From Pelobacter seleniigenes DSM 18267 (lineage in GTDB: Bacteria; Desulfobacterota; Desulfuromonadia; Desulfuromonadales; Geopsychrobacteraceae), in the NCBI RefSeq assembly GCF_000711225.1, contig NZ_JOMG01000001.1, positions 1 through 64,000 of the forward strand: DNA of 64,000 nucleotides, written 5' to 3'. Shown piece by piece: positions 57,977 to 64,000 of this stretch. The position numbers were made by a program, and so were the translations under genes. The stretch's first letter is position 1, and each line of letters begins with the position of its first letter. The notes beneath the pieces were generated by a model that made no database searches, was not told where the DNA came from, and was given only the letters and a program-made list of their open reading frames with translations.

Positions 57977-59293
57977 ATGTTGGCAAAATCGTCTCGTTCA
58001 TATCGCCCCTTGCCTGCGTTGGTCATGCCCCCCGACCTGCAGACCAGATTGGCTATTTTAAGTGGTGCCGCCAAATATGATGCATCCTGCGCATCCTGCG
58101 GCAGTACCCGTAGCGGAAAAGGCCCGGGGGCAACGCATATCAGTGGAATCTGCCATTCCTGGGCAGCCGACGGGCGCTGCATTTCCCTGCTTAAAGTCCT
58201 GCTCAGCAATGCCTGCCGGTATGATTGTGCCTATTGTGCCAACCGACGCTCCAATGACCACCGCAGGGTCAGCTTTTCCGCGGAAGAACTGGCCGGTTTG
58301 ACCATGGAATTTTATCGGCGCAATTATATTGAGGGGCTATTTCTCAGTTCAGCGGTTTTTTCAGACCCTGATACAACCATGCTCGAATTGTTGCGCACTC
58401 TGAAAATATTGCGTCATCAGTATCGATTCCACGGTTATATTCACCTGAAAGTCATTCCTGGTTGTAGCCGCGAGTTGGTTCATGCCGGAACCCTGCTCGC
58501 CGACCGACTCAGTGCAAACATCGAATTGCCGAGCAAAAAAAGCCTCCAGTTGCTGGCACCGGAAAAAGAACAACAGCAGATTCTGGAGGTCTTTCATCAG
58601 GCGCAGGGCAGCTACCTTAAGCATCAACCCCAAACTAAGAAGGCCAAGACCAACCCGCCAGGAATCGGCATGAGCACACAAATGATCATCGGCGCAACCC
58701 CCGAAGATGATCGGACTATTTTACGCCAAGTGGGCCAACTGTATCGTCTTCCTCAGCTCCAGCGGGTCTACTATTCGGCCTATATCCCGGTCAACAGTGA
58801 CAAGCGCCTCCCAGTGATTGGCAACAGCCCACCACTAAAACGGGAACACCGGCTATATCAGGCGGATTGGCTGCTGCGCTATTATCAGTTCGATGTCGAT
58901 GAAATACTCGCTCCGCAACAACTCTTCCTTGACGCAGAGCTTGACCCGAAGGCGGCCTGGGCCCTTCGCCACCTCGAGCATTTTCCGATCAACGTCAACC
59001 GCGCCAGCAAAGAGGAGTTACTGCGGGTACCGGGGCTTGGCGTTCGCTCCTGCACTAAAATCCTCCGTGCCAGGCGCCAGACAACCCTGCACCTGGACGA
59101 CCTGAAAAAGCTCGGCGTGGTGATGAAGCGAGCGCGCTATTTTCTCCATGACGGGAATAGCATGCCAGCGGCTTTCAGGTCCGAAGAAGCTTTGCGCTGC
59201 GCCCTCGTGCCACAGGCAGAACGGCAGCTGAGTCTGGATTTCAACACACCTCCCCTTGCTGCCGATACTTCGGCCCTTTCGGGTGAGTTATGA
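57977..59293 (+). CDS. Radical SAM protein, putative DNA modification/repair (TIGR03916 type)
   Basis: 438 residues. Radical SAM cluster motif CRYDCAYC (CxxxCxxC) in LLSNACRYDCAYCANRRSND, preceded by further cysteines in CASCGSTR and GICHSWAADGRC. The C-terminal part holds a helix-hairpin-helix DNA-binding element (INVNRASKEELLRVPGLGVRSCTKILRAR) and LKKLGVVMKRARYFL, the end typical of the radical SAM family that accompanies uracil-DNA-glycosylase-linked proteins. Stop overlaps the next gene (ATGA). Reaction unknown; a nucleic acid substrate is likely. Confidence 0.9.
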   Translation: MLAKSSRSYRPLPALVMPPDLQTRLAILSGAAKYDASCASCGSTRSGKGPGATHISGICHSWAADGRCISLLKVLLSNACRYDCAYCANRRSNDHRRVSFSAEELAGLTMEFYRRNYIEGLFLSSAVFSDPDTTMLELLRTLKILRHQYRFHGYIHLKVIPGCSRELVHAGTLLADRLSANIELPSKKSLQLLAPEKEQQQILEVFHQAQGSYLKHQPQTKKAKTNPPGIGMSTQMIIGATPEDDRTILRQVGQLYRLPQLQRVYYSAYIPVNSDKRLPVIGNSPPLKREHRLYQADWLLRYYQFDVDEILAPQQLFLDAELDPKAAWALRHLEHFPINVNRASKEELLRVPGLGVRSCTKILRARRQTTLHLDDLKKLGVVMKRARYFLHDGNSMPAAFRSEEALRCALVPQAERQLSLDFNTPPLAADTSALSGEL

Positions 59294-60048
59294 TTTTAAG
59301 TTATGATGGCAGCCTGCCCGGTTTTCTCTGTATACTCGGCCACGCGTTGAAAACTTATCCGCAATGGAGTGAGGTCAGAAACCTTGCCGAGTCGCCCCTG
59401 TCCAGTCTCTTTGGCCAGGAACAGGAGATCGCCACAGATTATGACTTTGCGGATAAAGTGGTCAGTGGTCTTGGTAAAAAATTAGGAAAACAGTTTCCCA
59501 ATAAGCTCGCTTACGCATTTTCCAGTGAATGGCAAGGCATCGAAGCGGATCTGATCAAGATCACCGGGCGGGCTCTGAAAAGAGGCAGACCCTGTCTTGA
59601 TCAACTGAGCGACCCGCTGGTACAGCGCTTTCAGAGCGCGGCCTTCAGGACGGCCAGGGAGAAACACCGCCTGCTCGGGCTGTTGCGCTTTTCCCGCCTG
59701 CAAGATGATTGTTTTCTGGCACAGGTCAAACCTCAAGCCAACGTCGTACCGTTTCTGGGCGCCCATTTCGCCAGACGTTTCAGCGATCAGCGCTGGGGCA
59801 TTGTTGATACCAAGCGCCGGATTGCACTCTTCGGAGCGGGTCCGGAATGGAGCCTGGAAAGCCAGGTCGAGATTGCAGCGGACCTCAGTTTCCATCACAG
59901 TGAAACCGCCATTGTTAACCTGTGGAAGTCATTCTACAAACATATCAGCAACCCGGACCGCTACAACCCTCAATTGCGCCGGCAATTCATGCCCAAAAGA
60001 TACTGGTCCAACCTGACCGAAATGCAACCGGAAGAGCCAATGAAGTAA
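59290..60048 (+). CDS. DUF4130 / TIGR03915-type putative DNA metabolism protein
   Basis: 252 residues. Begins ILSYDGSLPGFLCILGHAL and ends with the conserved EIAADLSFHHSETAIVNLWKSFYKHIS...NPQLRRQFMPKRYWSNLTE pattern; central REKHRLLGLLRFSRLQDDCFLAQVKP. In many bacteria this domain is fused to a uracil-DNA glycosylase domain; here it stands alone, with no glycosylase in the window. Its ATG overlaps the radical SAM stop, so the two are made together and probably work together. Confidence 0.9.
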   Translation: MILSYDGSLPGFLCILGHALKTYPQWSEVRNLAESPLSSLFGQEQEIATDYDFADKVVSGLGKKLGKQFPNKLAYAFSSEWQGIEADLIKITGRALKRGRPCLDQLSDPLVQRFQSAAFRTAREKHRLLGLLRFSRLQDDCFLAQVKPQANVVPFLGAHFARRFSDQRWGIVDTKRRIALFGAGPEWSLESQVEIAADLSFHHSETAIVNLWKSFYKHISNPDRYNPQLRRQFMPKRYWSNLTEMQPEEPMK

Positions 60049-60830: not shown

Positions 60831-61144
60831 CATATCTCCTTTGCATTCTAGCCAACTGCCTGCAGGCAGCCGGGAAGCCCGTAACGGGCGATCCTGATCG
60901 ATGATCCGGATAAGTAGCGGAAGCCATTGAGGGGGCTTTCCTGACCATATGTTAGGTGCACTCCCATTAACATAGCATGGAAAAACCGCGGCCATCCCAT
61001 AAGATAAAACACCGTTCTCCCTACTTTAGTGCATCTCACATTGAATTGAGAAATTAATTTTTATAATAAATTTCCTTCTTGCTATTGCTAAAAAGAATAA
61101 GATATATTTTTCTGAATATATTGGATTTCCAAGGAGAAAAGGTC
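60831..61144 (+). other. Gene-free stretch before the FmdB-type gene
   Basis: About 314 bases; GC-rich first half with small repeats, then an AT-rich half with the candidate promoter at 61040-61067. No ORF with a ribosome site. Confidence 0.45.
61040..61067 (+). promoter_or_regulatory. Putative promoter of the FmdB-selenoprotein unit
   Basis: ATTGAA, 16-base spacer, TATAAT (61062-61067). The -10 is a perfect consensus; the -35 is weak. Confidence 0.4.
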
Positions 61145-61321
61145 GTGCCGATCTACGAATACCATTGTCGCCTCTGCAACCGTACCTTCGAAAAGATTCA
61201 ACGGCTGAAACAGCCGGAAGCACTTTGCCCCCACTGTGGACAGCCAGCCGAAAAAAAGGTCTCTCGTCCGGTGGTGGCTGCTGGAAGCTGCCAGCCTCTG
61301 CCAGGCAGCGGCTTTACCTGA
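61145..61321 (+). CDS. FmdB-type zinc-ribbon protein
   Basis: 58 residues from GTG 61145 with AAGGAG seven bases upstream. MPIYEYHCRLCNRTFEKIQRLKQPEALCPHCGQPAEKKVS is the FmdB/CxxC_CxxC_SSSS family: CxxC, FE, CPxCG. Family members were first named as regulators of formamidase, but their real role is uncertain; a zinc ribbon is sure. Followed after 99 bases by the selenoprotein gene. Confidence 0.9.
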   Translation: MPIYEYHCRLCNRTFEKIQRLKQPEALCPHCGQPAEKKVSRPVVAAGSCQPLPGSGFT

Positions 61322-61420
61322 GGATGATACCTAGCGGGCGGCGTGACCGTTCGTCATCTTTTTACAGACTAGGTCTGAACTTATTGACATGTCACTATCC
61401 AAAAAGTAAGGAGCGGGATT

Positions 61421-61708
61421 ATGCTGACAATGACCGACAAAGCGCGGGATAAATTCAAAGAATTGCTGGCTGATCATCCGGGCAAACACCTCCGGGTTAT
61501 CTTTGAAGGCTTTGGCTGAGGCGGGCCCAAACTGGGCTTGGCTCTGGATGAGCTGAAAAAAGATGAACAGGTTGTCCTGATCAACGAAATCGAACTGATT
61601 ATCGATGCGAGTGTTCTTCCCTATACCAAAGGGAATGAAATCGATTATATCAGCAACCCCTATGGACAGGGCTTTTCCATCGCTCCGGCCATTGGAGGAT
61701 GTTGCTAA
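61421..61708 (+). CDS. HesB/IscA-like selenoprotein (UGA-encoded Sec33)
   Basis: 95 residues when the in-frame TGA at 61517-61519 is read as selenocysteine. ATG with AAGGAG upstream. Sequence around the site is FEGFG-U-GGPKLGLALDELK, the conserved pattern of the HesB-like (seleno)protein family (TIGR01911), where Sec replaces the first conserved Cys of the A-type Fe-S carrier fold. The reading frame continues uninterrupted with normal codon use to TAA and ends GGCC, the expected C-terminal Cys pair. A hairpin follows the TGA. Probably an Fe-S cluster or redox carrier. Requires selA, selB, selC and selD elsewhere in the genome. Confidence 0.92.
61517..61555 (+). promoter_or_regulatory. UGA codon and candidate SECIS hairpin
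   Basis: TGA at 61517-61519, then GCCCA/TGGGC (61525-61537) with a three-base loop and weaker outer pairing (GAGGC with GGCTC), the position expected for a bacterial SECIS just downstream of UGA. Folding was judged by eye. Confidence 0.65.
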
Positions 61709-61729: not shown

Positions 61730-61761
61730 AATAAGCCTGAAGCAAACGCTTCAGGCTTATT
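61730..61761. terminator. Terminator of the selenoprotein gene
   Basis: AATAAGCCTGAAGC/GCTTCAGGCTTATT with a four-base loop (AAAC), followed by TTTATTT; 21 bases after the stop. Can also stop minus-strand transcripts from cyd. Confidence 0.92.
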
Positions 61762-61998: not shown

Positions 61999-63129
61999 TT
62001 AATAGCTTTTTTTGTCTGCGGCCAGTTCGTCGATAGTCAGTTTTTTGCTGTCCATCTGCCGCCACACCCAAACAATATATGCCAGCACAAAGGGGACGGT
62101 CAGAGCGACATAGGACATCATCGTCAAGGTGTAATGACTGCTTGACGCATTGTAAATGGTCAGGCTGCTGGCGATATCAGCCTTGGACGGATAGAAAGAG
62201 GTGTTGTTGTATCCGGCGACAAAAAAGATCGCCAGACAGGTTAACACTGTACCTAAACCAGCTGGCCAGATGCCTCTGACAGAGGCGGTAAAACGATTGA
62301 CGACAACCCCGAGCACAACCAGGACCAGTCCGGCCAGCAGCAAAATCAGGTTTAAAGGCATCTGCAGCAGGTTGCCGAGGTATTTATTGGCCTCAAGGGA
62401 GACAGTGCCATCCACCGGGTTGACGGCATAGCCATCCATCAGCAGCAGACTGACCAGAACGTAAAGCAAAAACGGCAGGGCGCAGAGCAGGTTATTAAAA
62501 GATGACTTTTTCAGGCGCGCCACCAGCCCGTCATGATCCAAGCTGTTGGCAAGATAAAGCGCCCCCAGGGTACGGGCCAGGAAAACCAGGAAGACACCGA
62601 AGCTTAAGTTAAACAGGCTGAAGGCCGCTTCCAGTCCCCGCAGAGGATGGGTCCATTTCACCAGATTGAATTCGTTCAGGGTGAAATTGGAGCCGGTGAA
62701 AAAAGTCCCGACCGCGGCACCGATCAACAGCACACCGACTGATCCGTTAATGAACATAAAAACTTCATAGGTCTTTTGGCCAAGAAAGTTGCCGGGCTTA
62801 CGGCGGTATTCATAGCTGACCGCCTGAACGATAAAAGTAAAAAGAATCAGGATCCAGACCCAGTACGCACCGCCAAAACTGGTGGCATAAAAAAGTGGGA
62901 AGGAGGCATAAAAAGCGCCACCGAACAGGACCAGGGTCGTGAAGGTCAATTCCCATTTCCGGCCAAGGGAGTTCACCATCAGGGTTTTCTCGTCTTCGCT
63001 GCCGGGAATCGTCAGCAGCAGGGTCTGTCCGCCCTGAACAAAGGTTAGAAAAACGAACAACGAACCGACTACCGATACAATAAGCCACCAGAATTGTTGT
63101 AAGGTTGACCAGTCTAAGCTGCCGAACAT
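61999..63129 (-). CDS. cydB: Cytochrome bd ubiquinol oxidase subunit II
   Basis: 376 residues with about eight to nine membrane segments. N-terminus LDWSTLQQFWWLIVSVVGSLFVFLTFVQGGQTLL, GRKWELTFTTLVLFGGAFYASFPLFYATSFGGAYWVW and C-terminal YNTSFYPS fit CydB of the class found in deltaproteobacteria, where the usual start F.LP..WF is changed. Two bases after cydA. Inner membrane quinol oxidase for microaerobic respiration or oxygen removal. Confidence 0.93.
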   Translation of the reverse strand: MFGSLDWSTLQQFWWLIVSVVGSLFVFLTFVQGGQTLLLTIPGSEDEKTLMVNSLGRKWELTFTTLVLFGGAFYASFPLFYATSFGGAYWVWILILFTFIVQAVSYEYRRKPGNFLGQKTYEVFMFINGSVGVLLIGAAVGTFFTGSNFTLNEFNLVKWTHPLRGLEAAFSLFNLSFGVFLVFLARTLGALYLANSLDHDGLVARLKKSSFNNLLCALPFLLYVLVSLLLMDGYAVNPVDGTVSLEANKYLGNLLQMPLNLILLLAGLVLVVLGVVVNRFTASVRGIWPAGLGTVLTCLAIFFVAGYNNTSFYPSKADIASSLTIYNASSSHYTLTMMSYVALTVPFVLAYIVWVWRQMDSKKLTIDELAADKKSY

Positions 63130-63131
63130 AG

Positions 63132-64000
63132 TTATTCTCCTTCCGGTCCGATGGAAATCTGTTTGGTCATGATCTTGAGCTCAGCGATCAACAGAGCCGT
63201 AAACAGAATCAGGAACATGAAAAAGCTGGTCATTACGGTACCCGTATCAAGATTTGAACGGGCGATCGTCACCGGCAACATATCTTGAATAGCCCAAGGC
63301 TGGCGGCCGACCTCGGATACGATCCATCCCGCCTGAGAGGCGATCCAGGCCAAAAACAGCGAGATAAAGCCAAGCTTGAGCACAAAGGTTTTGTTTTCCA
63401 GCTGACGCTTCTCCAACAGATAGATGTAGACCAGAAACAGCAGAATAAAGAAGGTCCCCAGGCCAACCATGATCCGGAAAGCATAAAAAGTCAAAGCCAC
63501 CGGCGGGACCGCTTCATCGGCGGAGTTCAGATACCCATAACCGAGAAAATCCCGGTTGGCATCAAACAACGATAACGCCTGACCGGCCTGGACCTGGTCA
63601 TCGGCAGCCTTGGCCTTTTTGTAATCGGCCAGGCCCGCCACTGCAAGCTTGCCGCGTTTGATTTTTTCTTCGATGCTGGTTATGCCATGCTCTGCATTAC
63701 CAAATACCAGATCGTTAATACCGGGGACAAATCCCTCAAAGCTGCGATGGGCCAGCAGGGTCAGCATGCCGGGGATTTCAATTTTAAAGGAGAAGGCATC
63801 CTGGTCGTCACCCGGCTCTTTATCTGAATTGACTATCCCGATGGCCGTCAGCCCGGTTGGCTCATGACCATCGTACAAGGCTTCCATTGCAGCCAATTTC
63901 ATCGGCTGGGTGCGCACCGTCAAAAAGGCATGCTCGTCTCCGGTGAAAGCAACAAAGATGGAACTCAGCAGACCAAACACACAAGCCACGGCGATGGACC
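63132..64000 (-). CDS. cydA: Cytochrome bd ubiquinol oxidase subunit I, partial (N-terminus off the window)
   Basis: C-terminal ~289 residues; the frame stays open to the right edge. Visible: QPMKLAAMEALYDG (Gln/Met region near heme b558 and the Q loop), a moderately short Q-loop, and GWIVSEVGRQPWAIQDMLP, the hallmark GRQPW of CydA; three to four membrane segments. Works with CydB. In E. coli numbering the visible part starts after the heme-ligand His19, so that residue cannot be checked. Confidence 0.93.
   Translation of the reverse strand, partial: SIAVACVFGLLSSIFVAFTGDEHAFLTVRTQPMKLAAMEALYDGHEPTGLTAIGIVNSDKEPGDDQDAFSFKIEIPGMLTLLAHRSFEGFVPGINDLVFGNAEHGITSIEEKIKRGKLAVAGLADYKKAKAADDQVQAGQALSLFDANRDFLGYGYLNSADEAVPPVALTFYAFRIMVGLGTFFILLFLVYIYLLEKRQLENKTFVLKLGFISLFLAWIASQAGWIVSEVGRQPWAIQDMLPVTIARSNLDTGTVMTSFFMFLILFTALLIAELKIMTKQISIGPEGE

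Follow-up and report, generated by a model that had tools for sequence, protein, structure and literature searches.

The window (the whole stretch of DNA analyzed here, 64,000 nucleotides) very probably carries a small two-gene unit in which both products contain selenocysteine (Sec): a HesB-like protein, HesB-U, and an FmdB-type zinc-ribbon protein encoded just upstream of it, FmdB-U. As the best explanation of the evidence as a whole, SelB and Sec-tRNA would decode codon 33 of HesB-U and the penultimate codon of FmdB-U, both UGA, with each UGA directed by its own bacterial SECIS hairpin (Table 1). We infer Sec insertion in both proteins from the sequence of the genes, their conservation, a covarying RNA structure and the presence of the machinery in the genome. 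The two genes would probably be co-transcribed, and FmdB-U is the more novel of the pair.

Table 1. Positions of the predicted two-gene unit and its signals in the window.
Feature	Position	Strand	Description or basis
Promoter-like site overlapping the AT-rich operator-like stretch of related operons	61079..61108	+	Weak: 2 found vs. 1.2 by chance
Ribosome-binding site of FmdB-U, AGGAGA	61132..61137	+	Sequence
FmdB-type zinc-ribbon selenoprotein gene (FmdB-U), predicted	61145..61327	+	GTG start; 60 aa with two CxxC motifs, ending ...GSCQPLPGSGFT-U-G
Predicted Sec codon UGA of FmdB-U, stop by standard code	61319..61321	+	Kept in 53/53 orthologues fetched in the order
Predicted true stop of FmdB-U, second codon past its Sec codon	61325..61327	+	Sequence, translation
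Candidate SECIS of FmdB-U, GCGGGCGG-CGUGA-CCGUUCGU, wholly past its stop	61334..61354	+	-10.0 kcal/mol isolated; passes published bSECIS model
Ribosome-binding site of HesB-U, AAGGAG	61408..61413	+	Sequence
hesB-like selenoprotein gene (HesB-U), predicted	61421..61708	+	95 aa, Sec codon 33, C-terminal Cys94-Cys95
Predicted Sec codon UGA of HesB-U	61517..61519	+	Conserved TGA, confirmed at this codon in 42 distinct segments
Likely SECIS core of HesB-U, GGCUC-UGGAU-GAGCU, apical GG	61540..61554	+	UGGA loop conserved; fits the model in PMC13188914
Probable terminator after HesB-U, inverted repeat then T run	61730..61761	+	By eye

FmdB-U and its conserved C-terminal TGA

The FmdB-U gene of the window ends GSGFT-TGA-GGA-TGA, and its product matches TIGR02605 with 57.1 bits (cut-off 31.3) and PF09723 with 53 bits (cut-off 34). 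An FmdB gene lies directly upstream of HesB-U in 17 of the 30 loci read, the window's own genome included. All 17 of these genes read GFT-TGA, continued by GGN in 16 and by GCC in one, and then by a stop. The gene of L007, from a bin named Deltaproteobacteria, has the ending GFT-TGA-GGC-TAG.

A profile of the 17 genes was searched over the 136 genomes of the order and gave 53 close matches, one per genome, in 53 genomes of 13 families, which split by score from remoter FmdB paralogues. These 53 loci were picked by profile score alone and all of them were fetched. The TGA is kept in 53/53, followed by a tail of one or two codons and a stop. The tails read G (31), A (10), RA (6), AV (2), and AF, K, GP and NP (one each).

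A wider FmdB profile search covered 395 genomes of the phylum (matches in 155) and 297 genomes of the phylum of an Acidobacteria bin (matches in 105). Altogether 197 FmdB loci were read: 53 from the order, 103 from elsewhere in the phylum and 41 mostly from Acidobacteria. The 103 comprise 23 loci among the matches listed and 80 that were fetched, leaving out matches that end before position 57, six of the listed ones that run past it and those outside the matches listed. The 41 comprise the best 30 from the 105 genomes with a match (16/30 members) and 11 others (3/11 members). L222 and L113-L118, being repeats, were excluded. Membership was decided by three features of the frame and nothing else: a TGA, a second stop no more than 7 codons on, and a length of up to 82 residues. 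Neither the TGA nor the near second stop therefore counts as evidence outside the order. By this rule the 195 classified loci fall into 153 members (53 in the order, 81 in the phylum, 19 mostly Acidobacteria) and 42 non-members, counts in which the query enriches members and which do not give per-genome frequencies. The other two loci either did not match the pattern or had identical downstream sequence. L149 passes the rule and is probably not a member (it ends CTTC-TGA with a five-codon tail and a weak hairpin); L154 (GFT-TGA-GGT-TAA) and L253 were excluded by length, and L154 may be a member.

The tail is one residue long in 99 of the 153 members, two in 44 and three to seven in 10. The residue after the TGA is Gly or Ala in 122/153, and its codon varies synonymously (GGC 25, GGT 13, GGA 11, GGG 10; GCC 27, GCG 17, GCT 10, GCA 9). 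As their second stop, 69 members have TGA, 54 TAA and 30 TAG. All 153 keep the two CxxC motifs of the ribbon intact, and 34/34 diverse members matched TIGR02605 at E up to 1. A Cys lies at most 16 residues before the presumed Sec (U) in 151/153, the nearest one standing 5-11 residues before it in 149/153. In FmdB-U, a zinc ribbon at the N-terminus would be joined by a linker rich in Ser and Gly to a presumably mobile C-terminal tail, which would contain a Cys and then a Sec; usually one or two residues would follow the Sec. Among variants, L127 and L131 have the longer tail U-G-T-S-G-C-stop, with the downstream hairpin overlapping the end of the frame, and L184 ends U-C-stop, its predicted Sec adjoining the terminal Cys.

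For FmdB-U, the usual test by Sec/Cys pairs gave no homologue with Cys in a matching GF[TSG]-C context among the FmdB loci read (0/42 non-members end [FY][TSGR]-C). Of the non-members, 22 end in TGA, two of these with a second stop within 7 codons, and 13/42 end in CxxC plus one to three residues. Paralogues ending CxxC-x4-5-CxxC plus one to three residues (L129, L152, L155, L162, L174, L182, L189, L201, L208, L209, L211, L212 and L258) sometimes share a genome with FmdB-U (G180, G250, G309). Such CxxC-ending paralogues might be the Cys counterpart of FmdB-U, or a separate group.

Selenoproteins of the FmdB family have been described before. The GOS survey reported a putative regulatory protein of the FmdB family with two sequences and a CxxU or UxxU motif (PMC2398784), and the motif is elsewhere given as UxxU or U/CxxU (PMC13188914, PMC9312934). 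FmdB-U resembles the GOS protein in being an FmdB/TIGR02605 protein with a predicted Sec, and differs from it in that 0/153 members have a Cys or Sec three residues before U. An inventory of 2026 covers 119 families of prokaryotic selenoproteins, and its Table 1 gives FmdB only as UxxU (PMC13188914). An FmdB selenoprotein with a C-terminal Sec was not found in that 119-family table or in the open-access literature searched, but could exist. Judged by their names, KCU-star, UXX-star and SaoC in the same table share with FmdB-U a Sec closely before the stop, and the names also set them apart from FmdB-U, which is an FmdB zinc ribbon. Models of these three were not among the 25 most-matched of the 85 NCBIfam families found with 34 FmdB-U members, nor among the 12 families matched by the FmdB-U of the window. 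NF041197, considered because of its name in that inventory, "dual CXXC motif small protein," gave no match to the FmdB of the window at E thresholds of 0.1 and 1, and was likewise not among the 25 most-matched of the 85 families over the 34 members.

Selenoproteins are usually found through Cys homologues aligned to the UGA or through a notable truncation (PMC13188914). Since FmdB-U mostly loses one or two residues and no like-for-like Cys homologue was found, its Sec would be nearly invisible to these methods. The family may have been missed because its SECIS lies mostly past the true stop and annotation usually drops only those one or two residues. By these comparisons, FmdB-U would constitute a so far unlisted, widespread selenoprotein family.

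The FmdB-U hairpin and the Sec machinery

In the 17 loci next to HesB-U, the TGA of FmdB-U is followed by a hairpin whose stem sequence differs from locus to locus. Over the order, the loop of the best-scoring hairpin lies 18-24 nt from the first base of the TGA in 52/53 loci. In L090 another pairing scores higher, and in L055 and L075 the best stem is short or off the common loop. We tested covariation on 44 of the 53 order loci (41 distinct arm pairs, six positions), anchoring the alignment on the loop CGUGN alone and not on pairing. The arms paired in 96.7% of cells, compared to a mean of 61.6% and a maximum of 72.8% in 1000 partner shuffles and 27-48% with slid partners, and single stem positions showed as many as six pair types. 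The small AGU[UC]N loop class of the order (7 loci) did not exceed its shuffle maximum (94.4 vs. 94.4). Among the 100 members outside the order, pairing was above the shuffle maximum for loops CGUGN (18 loci, 90.7% vs. 65.7), AGUUN (16 loci, 88.9% vs. 71.1), CGGGN (17 loci, 74.0% vs. 66.7) and GGUC (32 loci, 66.7% vs. 59.3). For hairpins that lie past the stop, such as that of the window, the covariation cannot be due to protein coding; in members with longer tails, the last part of the frame and the hairpin can overlap.

A strong hairpin was found in 145/153 members compared to 7/42 non-members, and none in the remaining 8 members. G-U or G-G stands near the loop in 150/153 members vs. 14/42 non-members, and the loop centre of the 145 strong hairpins lies on average 23.9 nt (sd 1.6) from the first base of the TGA. 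The published bSECIS model (loop of 3-9 nt with an early G, stem of at least 4 bp, 16-37 nt from the UGA, energy of -7.5 or lower, isolated hairpin) was passed by 99/153 members, 6/42 non-members and 80/1530 shuffles. The 54 members that failed this strict test did so mostly on the energy limit.

These data bear on the strongest rival reading, in which HesB-U would be the sole selenoprotein and FmdB would end at its first TGA, with the second stop as a back-up and the hairpin as a terminator or processing signal. FmdB proteins would usually lose just one or two residues by ending there, and the hairpin of the window, followed by CATCTTTTTA, is scored terminator-like by the scanner. However, a T run follows only 11 of the 145 strong hairpins, so the hairpin is no terminator as a rule. 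The first stop is TGA in every one of the order loci, whereas the second, over all members, is mixed among the three stops, and a safety stop accounts neither for the prevalence of Gly or Ala with free third bases after the TGA nor for the narrow distance of a loop that nearly always carries G-U or G-G. We therefore regard this rival as improbable, and prefer Sec insertion in both proteins.

The search for selA, selB, selD and the tRNA-Sec gene (selC) that the sequence-only reading had proposed found all four in the window's genome. The proteins score 592, 352 and 370 bits for selA, selB and selD, all above the cut-offs, and their genes are clustered at G000:C1:135539-139838, about 74 kb downstream of HesB-U on the same contig; tRNA-Sec scores 70 bits and has the anticodon TCA. 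The genome's own selD match (L048, G000:C1:135539-136465) contains one in-frame TGA, as in the selenoprotein form of SelD. The presence of selB was rejected as a test of FmdB-U: the gene was found in 115/136 genomes of the order and 353/395 of the phylum, and within the order it is nearly as common without FmdB-U (68/83) as with it (47/53). Five FmdB-U genomes (G015, G056, G074, G092 and G106) have neither selA nor selB at the thresholds used. Missing contigs are likely in G056, G074 and G106, as the same genomes also keep HesB-U with its TGA. G015 (99% complete) and G092 (84%, about 570 contigs) have FmdB-U with no selA or selB match, and G015 is the hardest case against the Sec reading.

DNA alone formally does not name the residue at a UGA, and a reassigned tRNA could read both codons as Cys or Trp. 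Nothing else supports such a tRNA, and we consider it highly improbable: TGA also serves as the true second stop of FmdB-U members, the window's included, the genome has complete Sec genes and a Sec-type tRNA, and SECIS-like hairpins accompany both HesB-U and FmdB-U.

HesB-U, a predicted selenoprotein of a known kind

The sequence-only reading had singled out HesB-U as a selenoprotein gene hidden by an in-frame TGA, and we confirm its observation, coordinates and reading. The translated frame of 95 residues has its sole TGA at codon 33 in the setting GFG-U-GGPKLGLALDE, stays open beyond it and ends GGCC, with the described Cys pair; the ribosome site is also in place. Conservation of the frame goes beyond chance: a search of the order gave 63 matches in 57/136 genomes, 55 with exactly one TGA and 8 with none. 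TGA occupies the Sec codon in 30/30 loci read among the matches listed, and the position was confirmed in 42 distinct segments, one of them from outside the order. The 8 TGA-free matches include two partial ones; six were fetched and two were readable by pattern, and both of these remoter homologues have Cys in the place of Sec (L267, GLGCSGP; L268, GGGCSGF). Two objections that the earlier reading had raised against itself do not hold: the TGA conserved in the order, together with the Cys homologues, excludes a single sequencing error at the Sec codon as well as a lost gene, and the homologues do not end there, since 55/63 matches run on through the TGA. Tandem HesB-U gene pairs occur in L105 and L106 (genomes G107 and G108), with one TGA per copy; both copies of G107 were read and have it at the Sec position.

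Assignment to the HesB/IscA-like family is supported. HesB-U passes Pfam Fe-S_biosyn (PF01521; 27.9 vs. a cut-off of 26.3 bits) and its predicted fold is IscA-like. Its best family matches, NF038090 IscA_HesB_Se (63.3 bits, E 2e-17) and TIGR01911 HesB_rel_seleno (50.8 bits, E 1.9e-13), stay below the curated cut-offs of 85 and 66.35, so we call the protein HesB-like and not a certified member of either model. As in the HesB-like selenoproteins of these models, the predicted Sec stands where the A-type fold has its first conserved Cys, and HesB-U carries the U-x-GP motif listed for them (PMC13188914). The AlphaFold model, built from 19 sequences, has a pLDDT of 87 and gave nine PDB hits at E <=0.001 (IscA, SufA, DsrR and others; TM 0.63-0.76 by query length), with IscA and SufA as the closest structures. 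Residues 93-95 are unreliably placed, so the model does not give the geometry of Sec33 relative to Cys94-Cys95. From the fold, HesB-U may be an A-type Fe-S carrier.

That the family is a known one, as the earlier reading also held, is borne out. HesB-like selenoproteins were in print by 2006 and occur in Deltaproteobacteria (Table 3, PMC1794560), NCBIfam contains models for them, and a Methanococcus maripaludis homologue was found by mutagenesis and its Sec demonstrated by 75Se labelling (PMC11097638). HesB-U alone is therefore not new, and sequence and model support placing it in a known class of selenoproteins whose predicted fold is like that of IscA. What distinguishes it from the family as known is its place directly after a second predicted Sec gene in the 17/30 loci described above, its own included. 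The notion that HesB-U is a decayed or truncated A-type protein with the TGA as true stop, which its scores under the two curated cut-offs might suggest, is highly improbable, as most matches run through a single TGA, the GGP, LGL and L residues beyond it are invariant in 19 aligned sequences, and a homologue has been 75Se-labelled (PMC11097638).

The sequence-only reading had further pointed to a hairpin after the TGA. The most stable hairpin there (61517-61560, -18.2 kcal/mol, z -2.9) is real and beats shuffles (89.9% paired vs. a maximum of 88.1%). Nonetheless, the bacterial SECIS model calls for a G at loop position one or two and a distance of 16-37 nt to the UGA (PMC13188914), and the window's loop AAC has no apical G; we set this hairpin aside as the SECIS. 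The likelier candidate, by sequence, is the hairpin at 61540-61554, with a GG loop 25 nt from the TGA. Its UGGA loop is kept in 42/42 distinct HesB-U segments, and its arms are 98.4% paired compared to a mean of 93.1% and a maximum of 96.0% with shuffled partners, a narrow margin owing to the coding sequence. Of the terminator proposed behind the gene, we recovered a 14-bp inverted repeat with a T run, which is absent from the list of the consensus scanner.

Genomic context and possible function

An AT-rich stretch like TATATATGAATATTAT recurs, by eye, at 61079-61125 of the window and in the upstream regions of L017-L046 and L102-L112. In the order, many HesB-U and FmdB-U genes have this stretch across their likely promoter, and it looks like a shared operator. 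A search of the window against Rfam gave no gathering-level match; the lax threshold yielded only Thr_leader and FuFi-1 below gathering level, which we took as chance or terminator resemblance. On the minus strand, cydB and cydA (cytochrome bd oxidase; 61999-63998) face HesB-U, and a cydB-type frame recurs facing HesB-U in 13 loci, the window's own included. At 57977-60048, a radical SAM protein (TIGR03916) adjoins a putative DNA-repair protein (TIGR03915).

Across phyla, the neighbors of FmdB-U vary and we did not find a constant genomic partner. In another family of the phylum (L270, G442), a HesB-like gene with GYG-U-GGP immediately precedes FmdB-U, so that the gene order is reversed. Other genes near FmdB-U include hydroxylamine reductase (hybrid cluster protein) in 8 loci that form a single BLAST cluster (NCBIfam confirmed one piece), a thioredoxin recognized by its motif in 5/62 long loci (confirmed in two), and a NifU/IscU-like scaffold in one locus. 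These neighbors hint loosely at thiol, Fe-S or nitrosative chemistry.

Mammalian thioredoxin reductase ends in the tail GCUG. FmdB-U is like it in having a penultimate Sec followed by Gly at the C-terminus, and unlike it in the type of SECIS and in the enzyme. By this analogy, the Cys and Sec of the FmdB-U tail would most likely form a reactive selenenylsulfide or a metal site, and the tail would serve redox chemistry or the handling of Fe-S clusters or metals. A more far-reaching joint reading, which we offer as speculative and rather unlikely as a whole, takes FmdB-U as a large unrecognized family in at least two phyla, with a SECIS that is typically 3' untranslated, and adds a Sec-to-Sec relay with HesB-U in the relatives of the window. 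In such a relay, the Sec-Cys-Cys site of HesB-U would carry a cluster, metal or persulfide that the Cys/Sec tail of FmdB-U would load, reduce or remove.

Should Sec insertion into FmdB-U be confirmed, many bacteria would have a selenoprotein in what is annotated simply as a zinc ribbon of the FmdB family, a small and common protein. Its SECIS would be a widespread exception to the statement that bacterial SECIS elements sit in the coding region. The question of what HesB-like selenoproteins do would, in addition, gain a selenium-bearing genetic partner.
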